From positions 248,001-312,000 of the IMG/VR virus record IMGVR_UViG_3300038463_000730: DNA of 64,000 bases; one strand, given 5' to 3'. The notes beneath the pieces are model-generated. The model ran no database searches. It saw nothing but the letters and a program-made list of their open reading frames with translations, and was not told the origin of the DNA. Below are positions 5,250 through 53,808 of the stretch, in pieces; the first letter of the stretch is position 1; every line of letters begins with the position of its first letter. Origin of the DNA: a virus. Made by a program: the position numbers and the translations under genes.

Positions 5250-6281
5250 TTACGGATGATTGCGCAGATTCGTCTCCGCCGAAGAGAAAGCGACTTGGAA
5301 TCGCAAAAGGTCATGGTTGGCTGATTTCATCAGCGCATCGCCCATTCCAAGAAGAGAGTTGGCATCCGGGGAGTCGAGAATCACCTGCGAATCGGTCCGT
5401 GAGCTAACCCGACACGAAATACGTGCCGGGAAATTGGCTTTGATCGTGCCAGAGATGATCTCGACAGAAGGACGTTGTGTCGCGACAACAAAGTGGATCC
5501 CGGCAGCGCGGCCCTTTTGCGCAATTCGGCAAACCAATTCGTAGAGCACATGATCCTGGTCCTGCATGATCAGATCGGCGAATTCATCGATCACGAGTAA
5601 CGTGTACGGTAGTTCACACTCGGGCTTGGCGAAGTAATCGCCAGGCAATTCGTTTTCCGCCATCGTCTTGTAGACGTACGGCATCCACTCGTCTTGAATC
5701 CATTGCAGCTGTTTGACAGTATCGGCGTACGTCGTTTCAATCCGGATATCTCGGTTGAGTTTTTCATACGGAGCGAATTCAACGTTCTTCGTATCGAAGA
5801 GAAACAGATTCAGATTCGGATGCCGCAGCGCGTTACCGATGATCGTATGGAGCAAGGTAGATTTACCTGATCCGGACGCCCCGGCAATCAGAAGATGCGG
5901 GTTAGTATGGAAGTCGAGCCACAATGCCTTGTCGTCTACCGTTTCGCCCAGATAAAACGGCACGACTCCGCTCGGAGGTGCGTAACTCTGGAGGTTTTCA
6001 TGCAAGTCGATTTTGCCCGGCATATCCGAAACGATTTGGATCCGGACAAGACCCTCCGACATCAGAGGCCGCACGATCGGCGGAGCCTTGGCTCGTAGCT
6101 TGAGCCCGATGTCGAGCGCGTTGCGCTCGACATCCTTGAGACGTCCACCGTCACTGAGCAGCACGTCGTAGTTCGAGATGTTCCTAACCTGCTTGAATCC
6201 CTTGCATTCGGCCTTGATGCGCAAAGTGTGGAAGACTTGGTTGAGCGTCAAGATGCGCGCTGCGTTATCGGCGACGTCCAT
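5250..6281 (-). CDS. FtsK/SpoIIIE-like DNA translocase ATPase
   Basis: 343 residues, essentially one FtsK motor domain. Walker A GASGSGKST is at residues 134-142, Walker B LLVIDEFADL at about 228-237, and the FtsK hallmark VVATQRPS follows. It lacks both the membrane domain and the gamma DNA-reading domain of cellular FtsK, so it is a stand-alone soluble motor of the HerA/FtsK class. An ATP-driven role in DNA movement (packaging, segregation or genome ejection) follows from the family. GAGG lies about nine bases before the ATG. It probably shares a transcript with the zinc-finger gene downstream. Confidence 0.92.
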   Translation of the reverse strand: MDVADNAARILTLNQVFHTLRIKAECKGFKQVRNISNYDVLLSDGGRLKDVERNALDIGLKLRAKAPPIVRPLMSEGLVRIQIVSDMPGKIDLHENLQSYAPPSGVVPFYLGETVDDKALWLDFHTNPHLLIAGASGSGKSTLLHTIIGNALRHPNLNLFLFDTKNVEFAPYEKLNRDIRIETTYADTVKQLQWIQDEWMPYVYKTMAENELPGDYFAKPECELPYTLLVIDEFADLIMQDQDHVLYELVCRIAQKGRAAGIHFVVATQRPSVEIISGTIKANFPARISCRVSSRTDSQVILDSPDANSLLGMGDALMKSANHDLLRFQVAFSSAETNLRNHP

Positions 6282-6360: not shown

Positions 6361-6750
6361 TTAGCCAAGATGCGGCATTTTGAGCTTCAACCGCTTGGCC
6401 ATTGACACGGAGTCTAGCTGAATCTCCACGCTTTGACCAGCGACGATCCCTAAGTGCTCCGCGCTACCACGAGGCATCTCGATAACCAGATCCGATTGAA
6501 TCGGTAGTCCGATAAGTTTCTCTGACATTGGCACACCTTGTGCTACATCCAACACCCGGCCTTCGGCACAAAAGATGATATCGAGCGGAACGTAAGTATC
6601 TTTCATCCAAAAATAACGAACTTCGGGTTTCGAAAATACGAATGCCATGACTGGTGCCGAACGAACATTCTTCAGTCCAGTTTCGTGTTCCAATTCGGTC
6701 AGCGCTACTTGCGCCGGTAGAATAACATCGCCAATCGTTACGAGATTCAT
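6361..6750 (-). CDS. DUF192 family protein
   Basis: 129 residues matching the DUF192 pattern: a GL motif near residue 25, then FVFSKPEVRYFWMKDTYVPL, IIF, and a C-terminal IEMPRGSAEHLGI segment. The family is small, often secreted in bacteria and of unknown biochemical role; no signal peptide is seen here. The start has a strong AAGAAGG site and overlaps the stop of the upstream 513-residue gene (ATGA). The 79 bases after it (6282-6360) hold no gene. Confidence 0.85.
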   Translation of the reverse strand: MNLVTIGDVILPAQVALTELEHETGLKNVRSAPVMAFVFSKPEVRYFWMKDTYVPLDIIFCAEGRVLDVAQGVPMSEKLIGLPIQSDLVIEMPRGSAEHLGIVAGQSVEIQLDSVSMAKRLKLKMPHLG

Positions 6751-8288
6751 TTGACCTTCTTTGGTTTCTCTGGTTGACGATCCGACAATAGGAATGCCGT
6801 GTCACGCTGTACTTCATCGAAGTCAGTCTTTAGCGATGACAAAAACTGGTACAAATCTTCGAACGTATTTCCCTGCTCGATAGCTTTCATGAAAGCTTTG
6901 ACCGTTTGTCTAGTCTGGGCCAGACGATCAAACAGTTTCGACCTCGTACTCGCTGACCAATCTCCGAACGGTAGATTCATCCGCTTTCGTTTTAACATTC
7001 GAGTCAAAACGTTATGTGCCTCGGTTACCAATTCGGCATTGTTTCTGTCCGTCAGAAACTCTGGATCCGGCTCTGGTCCCGGATCCTCCGGTTCCGAATC
7101 CGAAAGCGGAGCTGGTGGCGGATTCGGAACATCATCCTTCGCTAGTTCACGCGGCATATCGTACAATTCAGTGATCGTACTCCATGGCTGCGTCGTACGG
7201 TATATTTTACGTAATAGTCTTACAAGTTCATCGTACTTCATCTTCATCTTACTGATGATATCACGACGTTCAATATCATCTTTGGATGCTTTGAAGATAG
7301 TCGCCAGAGAATGGAACTCTTGCTTATAGTGCTTGAGGTTCACCTCGCGCAGTGCCGAAGCTACACTAAATTCACGTTGATACCATTGAAAATCAGACGT
7401 GTATTTGCTCTGTTCATTAAATAGAACGTTTCTATTGAGTACGAAGTCTCCTTTACCGAGTTCCTTAGCGTACTGTTGAAACAACTTGTGCAGCGAAAAA
7501 ACTTTTGATGAGTAGGCTTGAAAGGCTTGTGACAACCGTTCCGTATCTGATCCACTCAATGACACAGAGGCATCCTGCATCTCTTCAATGTCATGCTTCA
7601 GATCAACAAGGCGAAGCAACATATCGACGCGCGTCTTTCGCCCGGTCTCGTTCGAGAACGGAGACTTGAGTCGATACATCGTGCGTGAGAGCGGCCCGGC
7701 TTTCTTTTCAGCAAGCTCTTGACGTGCAAGTTTCGACAGAGCAATGGTAGATTCGAAATCGTTTGCAATGCCGAACATGTCAGTTCCAGCTTCACGTGCA
7801 GCCCGAATGAACTCGGCTGCCTTCGGCATGGCCTCGGGAAACTTCGGCGCCAACGGATTCTCTTGTTTTGGCTCGGGCTTCTTCTCTGGCTGCGGAGCGG
7901 GACGATTCGATACGGGACGATTCATACGTTGTCTCTGTTTGTTCTCGCGACGGTCATGATGCTCGCGGCTAATTTCGTTCTGACGCTGAATGATTTCTAG
8001 AGCCTGCTGAGCAACGGACTGGTACTCCGTCGCCATCTCGGTCAATAGCTCGGTGTACGACCCGTCAAAAGGCTGCGTGACCTTTGTGGGCATCAAACTA
8101 TGTTCTGAGTCTCCATGGCCGTTCAAACCGCGTTTAAACGCAATCAAGTCCCATATTAGAGTGCTGACCTGGTCTTTCCAGCTATCCTTCATCTGGAGCA
8201 GTTGTTCAACAACTGGATCCCGCGCTGGTTTTCTGGTCTTTTTTCTCGTTGGAGGCGGCATAGCTATATACGGAGATATGGATATCAC
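6747..8288 (-). CDS. large hypothetical protein, charged with Pro-rich linkers
   Basis: About 513 residues, highly charged and mostly helical. There is a Pro-rich N-terminus, a linker rich in Pro, Gln and Lys near residue 135, and a second linker (PPPAPLSDSEPEDPGPEPDP) near residue 400. Helical blocks between the linkers suggest coiled coil. No catalytic motif is seen. A GTG at 8288 makes a GTGA overlap with the preceding stop; a GTG at 8303 or an ATG at 8261 are alternatives. A structural or scaffold role is conceivable, but nothing identifies it. Confidence 0.75.
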   Translation of the reverse strand: MISISPYIAMPPPTRKKTRKPARDPVVEQLLQMKDSWKDQVSTLIWDLIAFKRGLNGHGDSEHSLMPTKVTQPFDGSYTELLTEMATEYQSVAQQALEIIQRQNEISREHHDRRENKQRQRMNRPVSNRPAPQPEKKPEPKQENPLAPKFPEAMPKAAEFIRAAREAGTDMFGIANDFESTIALSKLARQELAEKKAGPLSRTMYRLKSPFSNETGRKTRVDMLLRLVDLKHDIEEMQDASVSLSGSDTERLSQAFQAYSSKVFSLHKLFQQYAKELGKGDFVLNRNVLFNEQSKYTSDFQWYQREFSVASALREVNLKHYKQEFHSLATIFKASKDDIERRDIISKMKMKYDELVRLLRKIYRTTQPWSTITELYDMPRELAKDDVPNPPPAPLSDSEPEDPGPEPDPEFLTDRNNAELVTEAHNVLTRMLKRKRMNLPFGDWSASTRSKLFDRLAQTRQTVKAFMKAIEQGNTFEDLYQFLSSLKTDFDEVQRDTAFLLSDRQPEKPKKVK

Positions 8289-8560
8289 TCCATCAGATCC
8301 CACTTCACTTCTATTTCTTTAGCTTTAATACCTAGCTCTTCTAATCTAGCTACAATCTTCCTTGCTCGTTCCAAATCTATCTCGGCATGTTTAGCCTCTG
8401 ATCGAAATACCACAACTGGCTTATACGCCAGATTATGGATTACGGGATGGATCCGACTGACCCCAAGGGTAGGAAACTCTTTTCGTAGAAAACGAATAGC
8501 TCGACGTCGGATAGCCGTAGTCTTCGAGGCTTCCGTCGCGTACAGACGTATATGGTACAT
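8285..8560 (-). CDS. small basic protein
   Basis: 91 residues from ATG 8560, supported by AGAGG seven bases upstream, just after the lipoprotein stop. The first half is strongly basic (RRRAIRFLRKEFP), then a beta-like segment and a C-terminal helix rich in Glu, Lys and Arg. No family recognised; nucleic-acid binding is plausible from charge alone. Confidence 0.7.
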   Translation of the reverse strand: MYHIRLYATEASKTTAIRRRAIRFLRKEFPTLGVSRIHPVIHNLAYKPVVVFRSEAKHAEIDLERARKIVARLEELGIKAKEIEVKWDLME

Positions 8561-8757: not shown

Positions 8758-9405
8758 TCATAGTATATGGTCTATCATGCCGTACTCCAAGGCCTGGTTA
8801 GCATCCATATAAAAGTCGCGTTTGCAGTCTTCAGCTACAGTAGCATAGTCTCGTCCAGTATGACGAGATAATATCTTCATCACTAACTCGTTGTGACTCT
8901 CTAGCATGTCAAGGTCAATTTCAGTATCGATTCGATCAGCGTTCTCACTCTGCGGGAACAATGCCTGCAACCCGTGAATCATTATGTCACAATGCTTTGT
9001 TCCAAAACGACGCCCAGCTGTCCCGGCTGCTAACAACACGGCTCCAGCAGAATAGGCCTTTCCAATGCAATACGTGCTGATCGGAGCCCGGATCATCTGC
9101 ATGACGTCATACATATGCGAAAGAGCCGTGGCGTCCCCGCCGTTCGAGTTGATGAAGATCTTGATTTCTTCCTTGTCGTTTTCGTGGTCATAGTGAATGA
9201 GCAGGGCAGATAGGGCACATCCTACTTCTTTCGTCACGTCCTCAGATAGAAAAATAATGCGATTTTTTGCCAGGCGCGAATATATCTCCTGACTGCGACC
9301 AATATCAGATGAGCCTTCACTTTCATACCTCCCCCTTTTTGGGCGTACCATTTGTAAAGACTCATGTAACTTCCGTAGCGAGGCATTGGTTCGGAGCGAA
9401 GACAC
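8758..9405 (-). CDS. clpP: ClpP-like serine protease, complete triad
   Basis: 215 residues with the ClpP fold signature. Ser119 (AYSAGAVLLAAG), His144 (IMIHG) and Asp193 have spacings of 25 and 49, the same as in bacterial ClpP, so it should be proteolytically active in a barrel working with a Clp ATPase. INSNGGD and the C-terminal ALEYGMIDHIL also match the family. The N-terminus has about 35 extra residues. The start is GTG with AGGAAAC upstream. It follows directly the second ClpP-like gene, which lacks catalytic residues. The partner unfoldase could be host ClpX or ClpA; none is seen in the window. Confidence 0.93.
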   Translation of the reverse strand: MSSLRTNASLRKLHESLQMVRPKRGRYESEGSSDIGRSQEIYSRLAKNRIIFLSEDVTKEVGCALSALLIHYDHENDKEEIKIFINSNGGDATALSHMYDVMQMIRAPISTYCIGKAYSAGAVLLAAGTAGRRFGTKHCDIMIHGLQALFPQSENADRIDTEIDLDMLESHNELVMKILSRHTGRDYATVAEDCKRDFYMDANQALEYGMIDHIL

Positions 9406-9414
9406 TTCAGTTTC

Positions 9415-9999
9415 CTATCTAGTCCATTCCAGAACATGATCGATTAATCCGTATCGTTTGGCTTGTCCGGGATTCAAGAATAACTTACGTTCCGAATCCT
9501 TCGTTACTTGCACGACCTTCTTGCCCGTCAGCTTTGCTAGCGTCTCGATGTACTTCTTGTTGTCTCGCTTCAATTGGGAGAACGCAATCTTGGCATCGGT
9601 CATATCAACATACATTGCTGAGTCAGCCTGGAGCTGACTTACGCAGAGGAACGAACTCTTTGTCGCCGAACGAAAACCTGGAGCCCCGGCTGCCAATAGC
9701 AACGCAGGAGCGCCGGTTGCAGCCCCGAGACATATCGTTTGGATCGGAGACTTGATCAGGGTCATGACGTCGTAAATCATGAACACCGAGCGAATGTTCC
9801 CGCCCTCCGAGTTGATGTAGAGGTTGATCTGAGTATCAGAGTCTTGCGAATCCAAATACAAAAGGGCTGCCACCGTATCGGTAGCAACCCTATCGTCTAC
9901 GTAATCGTAGAGGAACAGAATACGATCATTTACTAATCTAGAAAAGACGTCGTACTGTACATCCCCGTTTGGTGTCTTTTCCGTTATGACTGTGTTCAA
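9415..9999 (-). CDS. ClpP-like protein without catalytic Ser and His (ClpR-like)
   Basis: 194 residues, clearly ClpP-fold: INSEGGN, LGAATGAPALLLAAG and the C-terminal RYGLIDHVL. When aligned with its neighbour, the nucleophile position is Gly96 instead of Ser and the histidine position is Ser121; the Asp region (TKDSERK) is partly kept. This matches the inactive ClpR type that forms mixed rings with ClpP in cyanobacteria and plastids. It starts with TTG preceded by GAGAGG, right after the DksA stop, and shares a transcript with the active copy. Confidence 0.9.
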   Translation of the reverse strand: MNTVITEKTPNGDVQYDVFSRLVNDRILFLYDYVDDRVATDTVAALLYLDSQDSDTQINLYINSEGGNIRSVFMIYDVMTLIKSPIQTICLGAATGAPALLLAAGAPGFRSATKSSFLCVSQLQADSAMYVDMTDAKIAFSQLKRDNKKYIETLAKLTGKKVVQVTKDSERKLFLNPGQAKRYGLIDHVLEWTR

Positions 10000-10001
10000 T
10001 C

Positions 10002-10355
10002 TTATCCTCTCAATCGTCTTTGTTTCGCCTCCTGCTCGTTCTGGTCAGCGCACTCGAAGCAATTATGAAACTCAGGGTTGAATTCTAATCGCTTCTCACC
10101 AATCTTCTCTGAACATTCTTCGCAGGTTCCGAATGTCCCGTCCTTTATCTTCGTTAGTGCTTTATCTATCCGAGCTACCTGTTCTTTGTTTCTGGCAGTT
10201 ATCTGCCCTAGAACATTCGCTATGGCTTTTCCTTGGATTTCATCTGTTTCATCACCATCGATATCTATATCGAGTTCGCGGGCGCTTTTGGCGATGATTT
10301 CGGTTCGGCGGTCATTAAGTAGCTTTTCAAGCTTTTTGATTAAGGTCTTTTTCAT
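10002..10355 (-). CDS. DksA/TraR family zinc-finger protein
   Basis: 117 residues. A long N-terminal coiled-coil hairpin is followed by a four-Cys zinc finger (Cys78, Cys81, Cys99, Cys102) in the DksA arrangement CEEC ... CFEC. Members enter the RNA polymerase secondary channel and alter initiation. The acidic tip around residues 28-39 (DIDIDGDETDE) sits where DksA carries functional Asp residues. It probably redirects host transcription. It overlaps the upstream 63-residue gene by 29 bases and is followed after two bases by the ClpR-like gene. Confidence 0.93.
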   Translation of the reverse strand: MKKTLIKKLEKLLNDRRTEIIAKSARELDIDIDGDETDEIQGKAIANVLGQITARNKEQVARIDKALTKIKDGTFGTCEECSEKIGEKRLEFNPEFHNCFECADQNEQEAKQRRLRG

Positions 10356-43138: not shown

Positions 43139-44440
43139 TTAGATCGACTTGGTTTTACCGTTAGCCCAAATGCTTTCCCAACCTATCTGTTCCAAAACCG
43201 AGTCAAGAAAAGAATTCGACCACGTTCCTTCTACCACTCCCTCACTATTCACGAAACGAGCCTTCTTAATGTAATCCTGAAGGTTCGTGCATTTCCCAGA
43301 AAAGATTTTGAAGCAAGGAGGAGACCATATCTTTGCGTCCTTTACGGTCAACGCAAAAAGTTTTTGTTCAGGCCAATCCTGAGCTGCCGGATCATTCTCG
43401 CGACGGAACGCGGTCGTGATCAAAACGTTTTTGAAATCCTGTTCGAAGTTCGACATCAATGAAGATACTTTCGCCTTCATTTTCTTGATGTTGGCTTGGA
43501 TATCCTCCGGCATGTACGGCATGACATCGTCATCCTTCTCGTTCAGGATGAGTTCAAGAATGCCACGAGGAGAACTACTGAGTGAATCTCGTGCTTTACT
43601 GTAAGCAACATAACCAGGGTTCTTGACCTTCTGGCGATTCCATTTTGAATCACGAACAACAATTCCTTCGTGATCCATCGGACTCCGTGAGTTGACGTAG
43701 TCCATCGCAGCTTGTAGGTCTGCGATATTGTACGAACCAACGACCGGAACATACTTCGTACAAGCTTCGTTCTCCGGCAATAACTCTATCCCAGTGAACT
43801 TATCACGAACCGCTAGAAGCGCGATGGTTGATTCTTTGTAATCGACCACGACCCGATTGTATGGCGTAGTAAGTTCAAAACAGTATGTGTTGTGCGGATT
43901 CAGAATTTTACATAGTTCTTGGAATGTCGTTCCGCCCGCGGTGAACGCCAAGGCCTTCTCGAACAACGTACGAAACGTATAGAGCTGGCATTCGAGCGGA
44001 ATATCCGCTTCCGGCACAGACCGGGTCGCGACATGCCACTCATGGATGATCTGATCGAAGTGAACAATGCACAACGTTCCGTCGAGCTTCTCGAACACCT
44101 TAAGCTGCGGATCGGACCAATTGATCGGCGCCGCGCACCCTTGACCGGCATTGAAGAACCGATTCATCGGGTGAGCTAGAACCTGCGTCGAACCTGGACA
44201 AATATGGTCGTAGTTTTTTCGACCATTCTTCATCCTCGCTTGAGGGAAAAGCGAAGATCCGTTACTCAAGATCAATCCTCGGCATTGTTGCGCCAGCGGA
44301 TCAGAATCTATCGAACGGATCTGATTGTAGTTTAGACTGAACTTATGGCCGTTTCGTGAATCGACAGAGATTTCAACTCCGTGAACTTCATCGAGTTGGC
44401 CGAACGTGTGATTGAGTAGAAACTGTTGGACTAGGAGCAT
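43139..44440 (-). CDS. T4 Rnl1-like RNA ligase
   Basis: 433 residues. Motif I FEKLDGTLC with Lys118, the EGIVVRDSKWNRQKVK segment near residue 255 (motif IV to V), and YVAYSKARD; size and order match T4 Rnl1. Repairs cleaved tRNA anticodon loops when paired with Pnkp, as T4 does against PrrC-type nucleases. The ATG lies in the loop of a perfect hairpin (44430-44447) whose stem also holds the AGGA, so translation may need the stem to open. Confidence 0.92.
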   Translation of the reverse strand: MLLVQQFLLNHTFGQLDEVHGVEISVDSRNGHKFSLNYNQIRSIDSDPLAQQCRGLILSNGSSLFPQARMKNGRKNYDHICPGSTQVLAHPMNRFFNAGQGCAAPINWSDPQLKVFEKLDGTLCIVHFDQIIHEWHVATRSVPEADIPLECQLYTFRTLFEKALAFTAGGTTFQELCKILNPHNTYCFELTTPYNRVVVDYKESTIALLAVRDKFTGIELLPENEACTKYVPVVGSYNIADLQAAMDYVNSRSPMDHEGIVVRDSKWNRQKVKNPGYVAYSKARDSLSSSPRGILELILNEKDDDVMPYMPEDIQANIKKMKAKVSSLMSNFEQDFKNVLITTAFRRENDPAAQDWPEQKLFALTVKDAKIWSPPCFKIFSGKCTNLQDYIKKARFVNSEGVVEGTWSNSFLDSVLEQIGWESIWANGKTKSI

Positions 44441-46519: not shown

Positions 46520-47437
46520 TCAAAATGAACCGGGCGCAACTTGAAAACATGTTAATCCAATCGACCGCCAAAATTCTACCACTTGATCGCGATCGTCCAT
46601 TATAAAGAAAGGATTATATTTATTACGGATATGCGTATCATATATTTCACTTTTGATGATAGAATCTTTTCTGTCATCGTCTGATTTTCGCATATACAAT
46701 TGATATTGAAAATTTTGGCCTAGATGCTTCACAATAAATTTACGGGTTGGAGCTTCGTACGTATCTTTGCGACCTGATACAAAGATAATTTTGTAACCAT
46801 TTGCGTCATATAGTTCTGCTGTGCGGGCGACAGGTTCGTTAATTATATCGATTTCATCACAGTTTGTCGCATCATATACATTTCTATTGCCGATTTTCGC
46901 CAATGTACCATCGAGATCGATAAGTATAGCGTAGGGTAGCGCAGGGTTAAATTGGTATTGTTGAGTTTGATTTGCAGCTTTCGTGATCGTTTCAGACCGA
47001 CAACTCCAATTTTTGACATGGTTCAACCCGAATTTCTTGTACGTATCCCGAATAACTTGCTCACCGACCGGGCGAGTCCGCCCGGCATCTCGCTTGATCG
47101 CCTCCTCCAATTCAACAGGAAAGAACTTCTCCATCACATGAACGTCGAGATTCGTTCTGCGGATAACCTCGACGATGTCGTCGAAATTCCGACGTTTCAG
47201 ATTGGTATCATCGATGATGATGTTGAAGCCTTTCTTCAAAGACTCACACATCAACATATCTCGGGTTCGAACGATGAATCGCTCATTCTCCGGAGTCCAA
47301 ACCGAATCATCAAGTAGCTCGCGAAGCAGATCTCGATTGATCCGCTTCCATTTACCCGGTTCCTTTTTTAGAAGGTCCCGAGCCCACGTTGATTTCCCGC
47401 TCGCCTGCAATCCAACTGTTACGTAAGCCTTAAGCAT
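46520..47437 (-). CDS. polynucleotide kinase-phosphatase (T4 Pnkp-like)
   Basis: 305 residues, bifunctional like T4 PseT. Kinase P-loop GLQASGKST at 9-17, RINRD and a lid with DTNLKRRN; phosphatase AILIDLDGTLA with Asp174 and Asp176, FVSGRKDTY, and MDDRDQVVEFWR. It heals RNA ends by adding 5'-phosphate and removing 2',3' cyclic or 3' phosphate, preparing ends for RNA ligase. The C-terminal end FQVAPGSF resembles T4. Probably cooperates with the three ligases in the window. Confidence 0.96.
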   Translation of the reverse strand: MLKAYVTVGLQASGKSTWARDLLKKEPGKWKRINRDLLRELLDDSVWTPENERFIVRTRDMLMCESLKKGFNIIIDDTNLKRRNFDDIVEVIRRTNLDVHVMEKFFPVELEEAIKRDAGRTRPVGEQVIRDTYKKFGLNHVKNWSCRSETITKAANQTQQYQFNPALPYAILIDLDGTLAKIGNRNVYDATNCDEIDIINEPVARTAELYDANGYKIIFVSGRKDTYEAPTRKFIVKHLGQNFQYQLYMRKSDDDRKDSIIKSEIYDTHIRNKYNPFFIMDDRDQVVEFWRSIGLTCFQVAPGSF

Positions 47438-49127: not shown

Positions 49128-49134
49128 ATATATC
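49128..49134 (-). promoter_or_regulatory. GATATAT element, eight bases before ATG 49119
   Basis: Exact match with eight-base spacing and no Shine-Dalgarno; lies across the end of the patatin gene. Confidence 0.6.
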
Positions 49135-50278
49135 AAACGAGCCCTAGAAATTTTGCTATCTCGATCTCGTTGTTCGCAGCGTCTTGGAAACCAAGGTCAA
49201 TTAGCAACCTGGAGAACGAACCGTCAAACAACAAATAGCTGGCCAAATCGGCTTCAAACGTGCCGATATCGATAAGCTTGAGCAGGTTCCGATAGACTCG
49301 ATTTTGTTTGTATTTCTTGTTGGTTAGATAGTCACCAGCCATCCTGCCGATGTCACGAGACGGGGAAATGGCGCACGACTCAATATAGCGAAACGGCTTC
49401 TCCATATTCGCAAGATGATCGGCGAACTCTTCTCCGTATAGTTCGGTTCCGGCCCGGATAACTTGGTTCAATGTATCGAGATTGTGAATGTCTGATTGGG
49501 CGTGATCGATGAAGAACGAATTGAAAATCTTACCAATCAATCGGCCCGCGCTCGGAGCCGGGTCGTTCTGGTACGTCGAGAACTGTTTTCGCTCATGCCA
49601 CAAACCAATCGAAAAAACATGAGTAGCCTGAAACGCAACGGCTGGAGCAATTGGGGTATTCTGCCGGATGCCTCCATCGCTAAACCATTCACCACCAATT
49701 TGTACAGGAGGAAACAATATCGGAATCGAGGCGGAGGCCAAAGCATGTTCGATACTTATCTTGGTTGGTTTGAAGTTGGTCCGGAATGCATCGTCAGGAA
49801 ATGGTTGGTTAGTCTCGGTAAACACAACCGTCTTGCCCGAGCGCGCGCTTGTTGTCGAGACACACAATGTTTCGAGCAGTCCGTTATCTATATTCTTACG
49901 AATCTCAGACCAATTCCCCTCTTGCGTCAAAAGAATTTTCAACGGCGTGATGTCAAGCAAGCTGCCGCTCTTCCCACCCGTAACGATATTCTTCCAGCTT
50001 GCAACTTGGTCCCAGCCGAGCTGGACGACAGCCGTTGGTTTTAGGGTCGTCCAGATTTGATCAAGCCTCGATATCGACGAGGCGATTGTTTTCTGGTGTG
50101 CTGCGAGCCAACAGGCGTGAAAAGCTCCGACCGACGTACCGCAGATGATATCGAATTTAGGGAGCGTACCGTAATGTTTAGGAATCTCCTGGAACAGATA
50201 TTTTAGAACTCCGACCTCGTAAGCTCCTCTGGCCGAGCCACCCGACAAAATCATCGCGTATTTTTTACTGCTCGCCAT
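49133..50278 (-). CDS. patatin-like phospholipase
   Basis: 381 residues. Oxyanion loop SGGSARGAYEVG at 12-23, nucleophile Ser49 in GTSVG, and catalytic Asp201 in DGGIRQNTPI. Cleaves acyl esters of membrane lipids. Good AGGAACGG site before the ATG. Phage patatins are uncommon; lysis, membrane remodelling or exclusion roles are possible. No signal peptide seen, so likely cytoplasmic at first. Confidence 0.9.
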   Translation of the reverse strand: MASSKKYAMILSGGSARGAYEVGVLKYLFQEIPKHYGTLPKFDIICGTSVGAFHACWLAAHQKTIASSISRLDQIWTTLKPTAVVQLGWDQVASWKNIVTGGKSGSLLDITPLKILLTQEGNWSEIRKNIDNGLLETLCVSTTSARSGKTVVFTETNQPFPDDAFRTNFKPTKISIEHALASASIPILFPPVQIGGEWFSDGGIRQNTPIAPAVAFQATHVFSIGLWHERKQFSTYQNDPAPSAGRLIGKIFNSFFIDHAQSDIHNLDTLNQVIRAGTELYGEEFADHLANMEKPFRYIESCAISPSRDIGRMAGDYLTNKKYKQNRVYRNLLKLIDIGTFEADLASYLLFDGSFSRLLIDLGFQDAANNEIEIAKFLGLV

Positions 50279-52707: not shown

Positions 52708-53808
52708 TCACACCCATGCGACGTCACGTAACGTAAAGCTCTCCTTAATCAGCGAAATACAAAGCTGATCAATCGCCTCCTGATCGGGCTTCGCTCTAAG
52801 CAACGAAGTTGCATAAGCTGCCTCAATCTCTTTTTGAATCTGCTCAACGTACGCAATCAAGAAATCAAACGACCACGCTCCATTTCGAATCGAAAGGAGC
52901 TCGATCGCATCGGGACGCTTTACGTTGACCTGGCCGTACAACAAAATCTCTTTCGCCATCCTGGTCAATCGCACAAGATGCATCCCGTGTTTCGTATCAT
53001 AGAGATATTTCTCTTCTAGAGCGGCACGCTTCGGATTACGAGTCTTCTTCCAATTGAGATAGTTATCCCAGTCTGTTTTCTTTCCATCGTACTCGCGCTC
53101 AAGTTGCAAAATACGAATGAAATTCTCACTCATACCCAGCGTACGAGCCGCAGCAGACCACGTTGAATCCGTGGTGATCGACATCTCAGTAAGAATCTCT
53201 GACATCTTACCCTGTAGGTAAATAGTCTGAGCATCTGTAAAGGGTTCAAAGTCCACATTCCAAGAGTCCACTTTCTTTCGCACAGCCGCCAACACAGCCT
53301 CGAACTGTGGCTTCGGAATGGAGACATTCTCTTGCAACCCGAACTCGGCACGGGTCGGTGGTTGCTTCGGTGGGTTCGTGATCCATCGTTTGTGTGTCTT
53401 GATCCGGTGAGCCTGAGCCCTGGCATAACCGAGGAAGCGCTCCTTAGCCTGACGAGAGATGAACATCTCTTTGTGTTCAAGTAGTCGCTTGCCTAGTTTA
53501 GATACATAGACATGATCCGATGGGTCGGTGAACAGGATCTCCAACACGTTCGGGTTGTTCTGCGCGGCTAGACTCAAGAACTTATGAATACCCCAGATTG
53601 TAACATCAGGAGTCTTACACTCGTATTGCTCGAATTTATGATTGAACCCGAGGAAATAGTTCTCCGGTGGAATCGCGACTCCACGGAAGTCCTCGTCCGA
53701 CTCTGGTGTATTGGTGCCATAAGCATGTGAACCATGCTTAGTAATGAAGATCGAGCGATCCTTAAGCCAAGCAACATTCGGGTTTAGGTTAGGGAATAAG
53801 TCAGTCAT
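52708..53808 (-). CDS. RlaP-type nucleotidyltransferase (RNA repair)
   Basis: 366 residues. Pol-beta-type NTase start: GSHAYG then SDEDFRG with Asp38 and Asp40, at the spacing of this superfamily. The rest is helical. It matches the RlaP family (RNA-ligase-associated polymerase, PF10127-like), which adds nucleotides to RNA ends and is linked to RNA repair. GAGGAAG precedes the ATG. It extends the repair set found at 36-47 kb. Confidence 0.85.
   Translation of the reverse strand: MTDLFPNLNPNVAWLKDRSIFITKHGSHAYGTNTPESDEDFRGVAIPPENYFLGFNHKFEQYECKTPDVTIWGIHKFLSLAAQNNPNVLEILFTDPSDHVYVSKLGKRLLEHKEMFISRQAKERFLGYARAQAHRIKTHKRWITNPPKQPPTRAEFGLQENVSIPKPQFEAVLAAVRKKVDSWNVDFEPFTDAQTIYLQGKMSEILTEMSITTDSTWSAAARTLGMSENFIRILQLEREYDGKKTDWDNYLNWKKTRNPKRAALEEKYLYDTKHGMHLVRLTRMAKEILLYGQVNVKRPDAIELLSIRNGAWSFDFLIAYVEQIQKEIEAAYATSLLRAKPDQEAIDQLCISLIKESFTLRDVAWV

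Follow-up and report, generated by a model that had tools for sequence, protein, structure and literature searches.

Catalytically dead ClpP paralogues are found in the mixed Clp cores of cyanobacteria, plastids and apicoplasts; the reason for which cells retain them is, to our knowledge, not settled. The principal precedents are the cyanobacterial ClpP3R core, the P/R rings of plastids and the apicoplast ClpR, which has no prodomain (PMC7966870). Other bacteria combine two ClpP types in different ways: in Listeria, ClpP1 and ClpP2 each form a homo-heptameric ring, and the two rings join in a partly inactive heterocomplex that binds ClpX with raised affinity (PMC5361862), and Mycobacterium ClpP1 and ClpP2 each carry a catalytic triad (PMC9035409).

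Here we describe a live and a dead ClpP-fold gene lying side by side in a phage, a pair for which a limited literature search found no previous description. The genes were found in a 64,000-nucleotide stretch of DNA (the window) that belongs to a virus record of 434,688 bp (IMGVR_UViG_3300038463_000730). Like cyanobacterial ClpP3/ClpR and the plastid P/R proteins, the pair comprises an active ClpP and a triad-less ClpP-fold partner, adjacent or co-assembled, and by analogy its anatomy fits a mixed ClpP/ClpR core. The cyanobacterial or plastid core is one hetero-14-mer (PMC7966870), whereas the phage pair is known here from its genes and from single-chain models. Compared with cyanobacterial ClpR, the phage dead copy is apparently independent in origin, being sister to its own neighbour and scoring below the ClpR cut-off, and it lacks Ser, His and Asp alike, with varied replacements and the His never kept. 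The cyanobacterial core also has a dedicated ClpC, whereas a Clp unfoldase was not found in the window's phage. The Plasmodium apicoplast ClpR (PMC7966870), a eukaryotic organelle gene that we liken to the phage dead copy by description, is similarly a dead ClpP-fold subunit without a prodomain; the phage copy starts at the mature N-terminus. Listeria likewise pairs one impaired with one fully active ClpP, but its impaired subunit (Asp to Asn) is also the one without the N-terminal chaperone-binding motif (PMC5361862). The phage arrangement is the reverse, with the N-terminal hairpin absent from the live subunit and present in the dead one. In Mycobacterium ClpP1P2, both types are needed for an active 14-mer, and the phage differs in that its dead partner has no triad. 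Finally, the single phage ClpPs that we examined, from jumbo phages including the Lak phages, the PBECO4 group, Agrobacterium phage Atu_ph07 and Bacillus phage G, among others, are present in one copy, have an intact triad and fall outside the clades described below. The explanation that best accounts for these observations overall, to which we assign a probability of about two in three, is a tandem duplication followed by a division of labour, with the two products forming one obligate mixed ClpP/ClpR-like core that works with a host unfoldase.

A tandem pair of ClpP-fold genes

The two genes lie 9 nt apart on the minus strand. The upstream gene, P0002 (9415..9999), starts with TTG and encodes the dead ClpP-fold subunit of 194 amino acids; the downstream gene, P0001 (8758..9405), starts with GTG and encodes the live subunit of 215 amino acids, whose translation may instead begin at codon 19, an in-frame ATG (9349-9351). 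A GAGAGG sequence 6 nt ahead of the P0002 TTG (10006..10011, minus strand) is a putative ribosome-binding site. Both open reading frames are present as the original prediction had them, and both proteins score far above the 20.2-bit cut-off of the Pfam CLP_protease model (PF00574; peptidase S14), at 169.4 bits for P0001 and 161.7 bits for P0002. Solved ClpPs were also the top matches of each in a PDB sequence search. Against the equivalog ClpP model TIGR00493, the two proteins reached 148 and 151 bits, below its cut-off of 308.6. Judged by these profile scores, the two proteins are members of the ClpP family but are not orthologous to housekeeping ClpP. The same phage encodes a third ClpP-fold protein of 202 amino acids (L003:1450-2058, about 330.3-330.9 kb of the record), divergent, with Ser-His-Asp intact and outside the pair; this gene is absent from the other 26 related records that were searched whole.

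Active sites were mapped onto E. coli ClpP (mature Ser97/His122/Asp171), using a reference sequence whose triad positions were checked. By this alignment, P0001 has a complete triad, consisting of the nucleophile Ser119 (codon 9049..9051), His144 (8974..8976) and Asp197 (8815..8817), all on the minus strand. The Ser and the His were correctly named in the original prediction, but its choice of Asp193 as the catalytic Asp was wrong, as that residue occupies the position of E. coli Asp167, which is conserved and non-catalytic. P0002, as claimed, has Gly96 (9712..9714) at the Ser position and Ser121 (9637..9639) at the His position, and the alignment adds a loss that had been missed, with Lys172 (9484..9486; all three codons on the minus strand) in place of the Asp. 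All three triad residues are therefore gone, and the dead subunit is ClpR-like in the sense of having a ClpP fold, as read from its sequence, with the triad absent. Nor does the second copy appear to hold an alternative Ser or His: the 20 columns that are invariant across 34 dead copies (see below) include no Ser, His or Lys able to replace the triad. An association between Asp97 and Arg171 within the dead site, which might have marked a compensating pair, was strong in raw counts (16/3/0/15, p = 4e-7), but supported branches gave just 2 independent pairs, and compensation is not established.

The surrounding genes are shared with related phages. A DksA/TraR-type zinc-finger gene (10002..10355, minus strand) lies 2 nt upstream of P0002 and is a neighbour in all 33 other loci, as is a DUF192 gene (6361..6750, minus strand). 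Downstream of the pair, a 518-amino-acid protein with no assigned function (6747..8303, minus strand) has a homologue in 32 of the 33, an FtsK/SpoIIIE-type ATPase gene (5250..6281, minus strand) is likewise conserved in 32, and an HU-like gene is found near the pair in 28. In one relative (L013:4521-5276), a single frame of 251 amino acids joins the start of the 518-amino-acid neighbour to DUF192. Elsewhere, the window carries RNA-repair genes for an RNA ligase, a polynucleotide kinase/phosphatase and an RlaP-type protein (43139-44440, 46520-47437 and 52708-53808), surface-sugar genes between 23909 and 34022 (DegT aminotransferase, GDP-mannose dehydratase, UDP-glucose dehydrogenase and a methyltransferase) and a patatin-like phospholipase gene (49133-50278).

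Conservation and origin of the pair

To assess the conservation of the pair, we searched IMG/VR with dead sequences and, separately, with live ones. These searches yielded 34 distinct dead-live pairs, including that of the window, in related jumbo-phage contigs with the same gene order and neighbourhood; all of the contigs (41-481 kb) are metagenomic and are possibly fragments. In every pair the dead gene comes first and the live gene follows directly behind in one orientation, with gaps of -38 to +40 nt. Each seed recovered pairs, and no orphan dead-clade or live-clade copy was seen in the searches from either. Whole-record searches of 20 further virus records, like those of the six relatives searched first, found exactly two ClpP-family genes in each.

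All three triad residues are missing in 34 of 34 upstream copies, and Ser and His are kept in 34 of 34 downstream copies, a pattern that argues against triad loss by chance; the third residue of the downstream copies is Asp in 25 and Glu in 9. Among the dead copies, the Ser position is occupied by Asp (19), Asn (8) or other residues, the His position by Ser (17), Gly (7), Thr (6), Asn (3) or Asp (1), and the Asp position by Arg (16), Lys (9) or others. Dead copies share a median identity of 55% with one another and of 33% with the live copy of their own genome. Reading frames are open in all 34 pairs. Both genes are under purifying selection: among the 20 least diverged comparisons, dN/dS of the dead gene is 0.05-0.45, and the live gene spans similar values. 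A TTG start is found in 29 of 34 dead genes, many with a Shine-Dalgarno-like sequence ahead of it.

Beyond these contigs, a nucleotide search with the pair against phages gave 0 matches, and no bacterial genome with a dead copy was among the best 80 matches listed. In BFVD, two public phage proteins plainly named ClpP resemble the dead copy (A0A6J5RS39, 46% identity; A0A6J5RRW5, 38%). A tandem ClpP pair in MT835782 was set aside as, by inspection, bacterial sequence of Actinobacteria type beside trigger factor. Four other loci (L052, L072, L077 and L080) encode ClpPs of Actinobacteria (Acidimicrobiales) type in which Ala replaces the catalytic Ser (GQAVAAAAVLL), and no second ClpP was seen within the fetched stretch of each.

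We then built a maximum-likelihood tree to place the pair, using 91 sequences: 20 dead and 20 live copies, 30 bacterial ClpPs, 16 other phage ClpPs (Ser-His-Asp in 16 of 16) and 5 cyanobacterial ClpR proteins. The dead copies (support 100/99) and the live copies (100/99) each formed one clade, and these were sisters (100/94), apart from bacterial ClpP, the other phage ClpPs and cyanobacterial ClpR, which grouped elsewhere (100/100). As each type is a single clade and the two are each other's closest relatives, the sequences indicate one tandem duplication inside the phage lineage. The phylogeny proposed with the original prediction, meant to distinguish a phage duplication from separate acquisitions, thus favours the former.

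Subunit anatomy and a proposed mixed core

Structures were predicted as single chains from alignments of each protein's own homologues. The model of the dead subunit has a mean pLDDT of 88 and a TM-score of about 0.91 to solved ClpP chains, its best structural match being a chain from the Mycobacterium ClpP1P2 complex. The dead copy begins with a mature-type ClpP N-terminus, without a propeptide, and its model includes the axial-loop hairpin (strands 4-9 and 12-17). The N-terminus of the live copy is variable, of low confidence and predicted to be disordered, and its model has no axial hairpin. As modelled, the live subunit combines the ClpP fold with the triad yet, with its axial loop gone, is not a complete standard ClpP subunit.

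The residues described as ring contacts, or the 'oligomerization sensor', of ClpP (PMC9035409) are also unevenly distributed. Dead copies have Asp/Glu169 in 29 of 34 and Arg170 in 31 of 34, compared with an acid at 169 in 3 of 34 and Arg170 in 16 of 34 live copies; the QXT ring-contact motif is altered in dead and live copies alike. The hydrophobic cleft in which unfoldases dock is more canonical in the live copy and altered in the dead copy, where position 114 is Thr in 34 of 34 (Leu in 67 of 67 bacterial sequences) and position 62 is Phe in 29 of 34 (Tyr in 67 of 67). By altering the cleft, Thr114 and, in most copies, Phe62 may weaken the docking of an unfoldase on the dead ring, and this is the main point against such docking. 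The main argument for joint function is that the losses of the dead and live copies are largely complementary.

We propose that an ancestral jumbo-phage ClpP gene was duplicated in tandem and that the copies split the work. The upstream copy would have lost the triad and kept the fold, the axial-loop hairpin (the pore gate and contact for AAA+ unfoldases) and the acidic/Arg ring contacts, and the downstream copy would have kept catalysis but given up both the axial hairpin and the acidic residue of the sensor. P0001 and P0002 would then form one mixed 14-mer, built either of two homo-heptameric rings or of mixed rings, in which cutting would fall to the live subunit, while the dead subunit would supply the gate, the scaffold and perhaps a contact for the unfoldase. 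Substrates would be delivered by a host Clp unfoldase docked at least partly on dead subunits, and the chamber may break down host or phage proteins during infection, presumably with fewer active sites and altered specificity. In its fullest form, the proposal is of an independently evolved viral ClpP/R machine with gate and docking on the dead subunit and cutting on a gateless live subunit, neither of which works alone, that co-opts the host unfoldase and redirects host protein turnover; we hold this version only tentatively.

A host unfoldase is presumed because a Clp-type unfoldase had no strong match in the window's record or in most relatives, which, if fragmentary, could miss one. The only strong Clp-type ATPase found is a 739-amino-acid ClpB/ClpC-like protein in one relative (G005; L028:1210-3429), in which a ClpP-binding loop of the IGF/IGL type was not seen by eye. 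Weak matches elsewhere were rejected as phage Clp unfoldases, as they are MoxR-like AAA+ proteins. A MoxR-like ATPase of ~370 amino acids is conserved in many of these phages (L295, L297, L287-L301), and in two of them it has an intein-like insert after the start of Walker A, with a LAGLIDADG match in one.

Other readings and what the pair would mean

Cyanobacteria encode a dead ClpR beside a live ClpP, which raises the prospect that the phage dead gene had a separate source, such as cyanobacterial ClpR. An AU test of the dead copies and cyanobacterial ClpR as one clade gave p = 0.093, so that grouping is not formally rejected. The best tree nevertheless joins dead with live, and holding the dead copies to ClpR lowers the log-likelihood by 31.8. 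Three phage dead copies scored 96-118 bits against the cyanobacterial ClpR model (NCBIfam NF009204; cut-off 263), to which true ClpR proteins score 376-386, and the replacements differ, as the cyanobacterial ClpR sequences compared have Gly at the Ser position and in some cases keep the His. We consider a separate acquisition improbable. The 34 pairs and the loss of the whole triad lend good support to the original prediction that a dead ClpR-like subunit accompanies an active ClpP, but on the evidence here the dead subunit does not appear to descend from a cyanobacterial or plastid ClpR. That the dead gene is instead a functionless duplicate in decay is scarcely credible: residues at the triad positions do vary freely among phages, but the frames are open throughout, dN/dS is well below 1, 20 columns are invariant, the start codon and ribosome-binding site are conserved and the fold is confidently predicted.

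Two further readings concern what the proteins do. Both match the PHROG family phrog_94, named head maturation protease (E values of 1e-25 and 2e-9), and some phage ClpPs are so annotated in public records, as would suit a prohead protease of ClpP fold whose dead subunit is structural. Scores against the corresponding NCBIfam model (NF045542) are, however, 52.7 and 32.5 bits for a cut-off of 120, and ClpP models fit far better. The portal (about 200.3-202.1 kb of the record), the terminase (about 203.8-205.6 kb) and a separate head-protease-like protein of 1140 amino acids (about 190.7-194.1 kb, about 62 kb from the pair) stand together 51-66 kb away, which makes a head-maturation role unlikely, and the conserved DksA/TraR, HU, DUF192 and FtsK neighbours include no recognised virion gene. 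We therefore give this reading little weight. Neither PF03420 nor PF07068, families of T4-type prohead protease and capsid proteins, gave a match, but nor did the controls, which leaves this result uninformative. Interference with host ClpP was also raised in the original prediction: the dead subunit might poison host ClpP rings, or dead barrels might occupy the host unfoldase, with the live copy working apart. The dead copy retains the axial loop and the acidic/Arg ring contacts, the parts that would serve best in mimicking host ClpP, and a Clp-type unfoldase was not found in the phage. But the dead gene always adjoins the live gene and never stands alone, and a poison would have no need of a linked live copy; dead and live are sister clades with complementary losses; and the dead copy has an altered unfoldase cleft. 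We consider host poisoning unlikely, if worth keeping in mind, and favour the mixed core.

If the mixed-core reading is true, the pair would represent an independent viral origin of a ClpP/R core, in which gate and active site are divided between two small proteins. The role of a dead subunit would then be testable with few parts, and the pair would provide a route by which large phages redirect host proteolysis.
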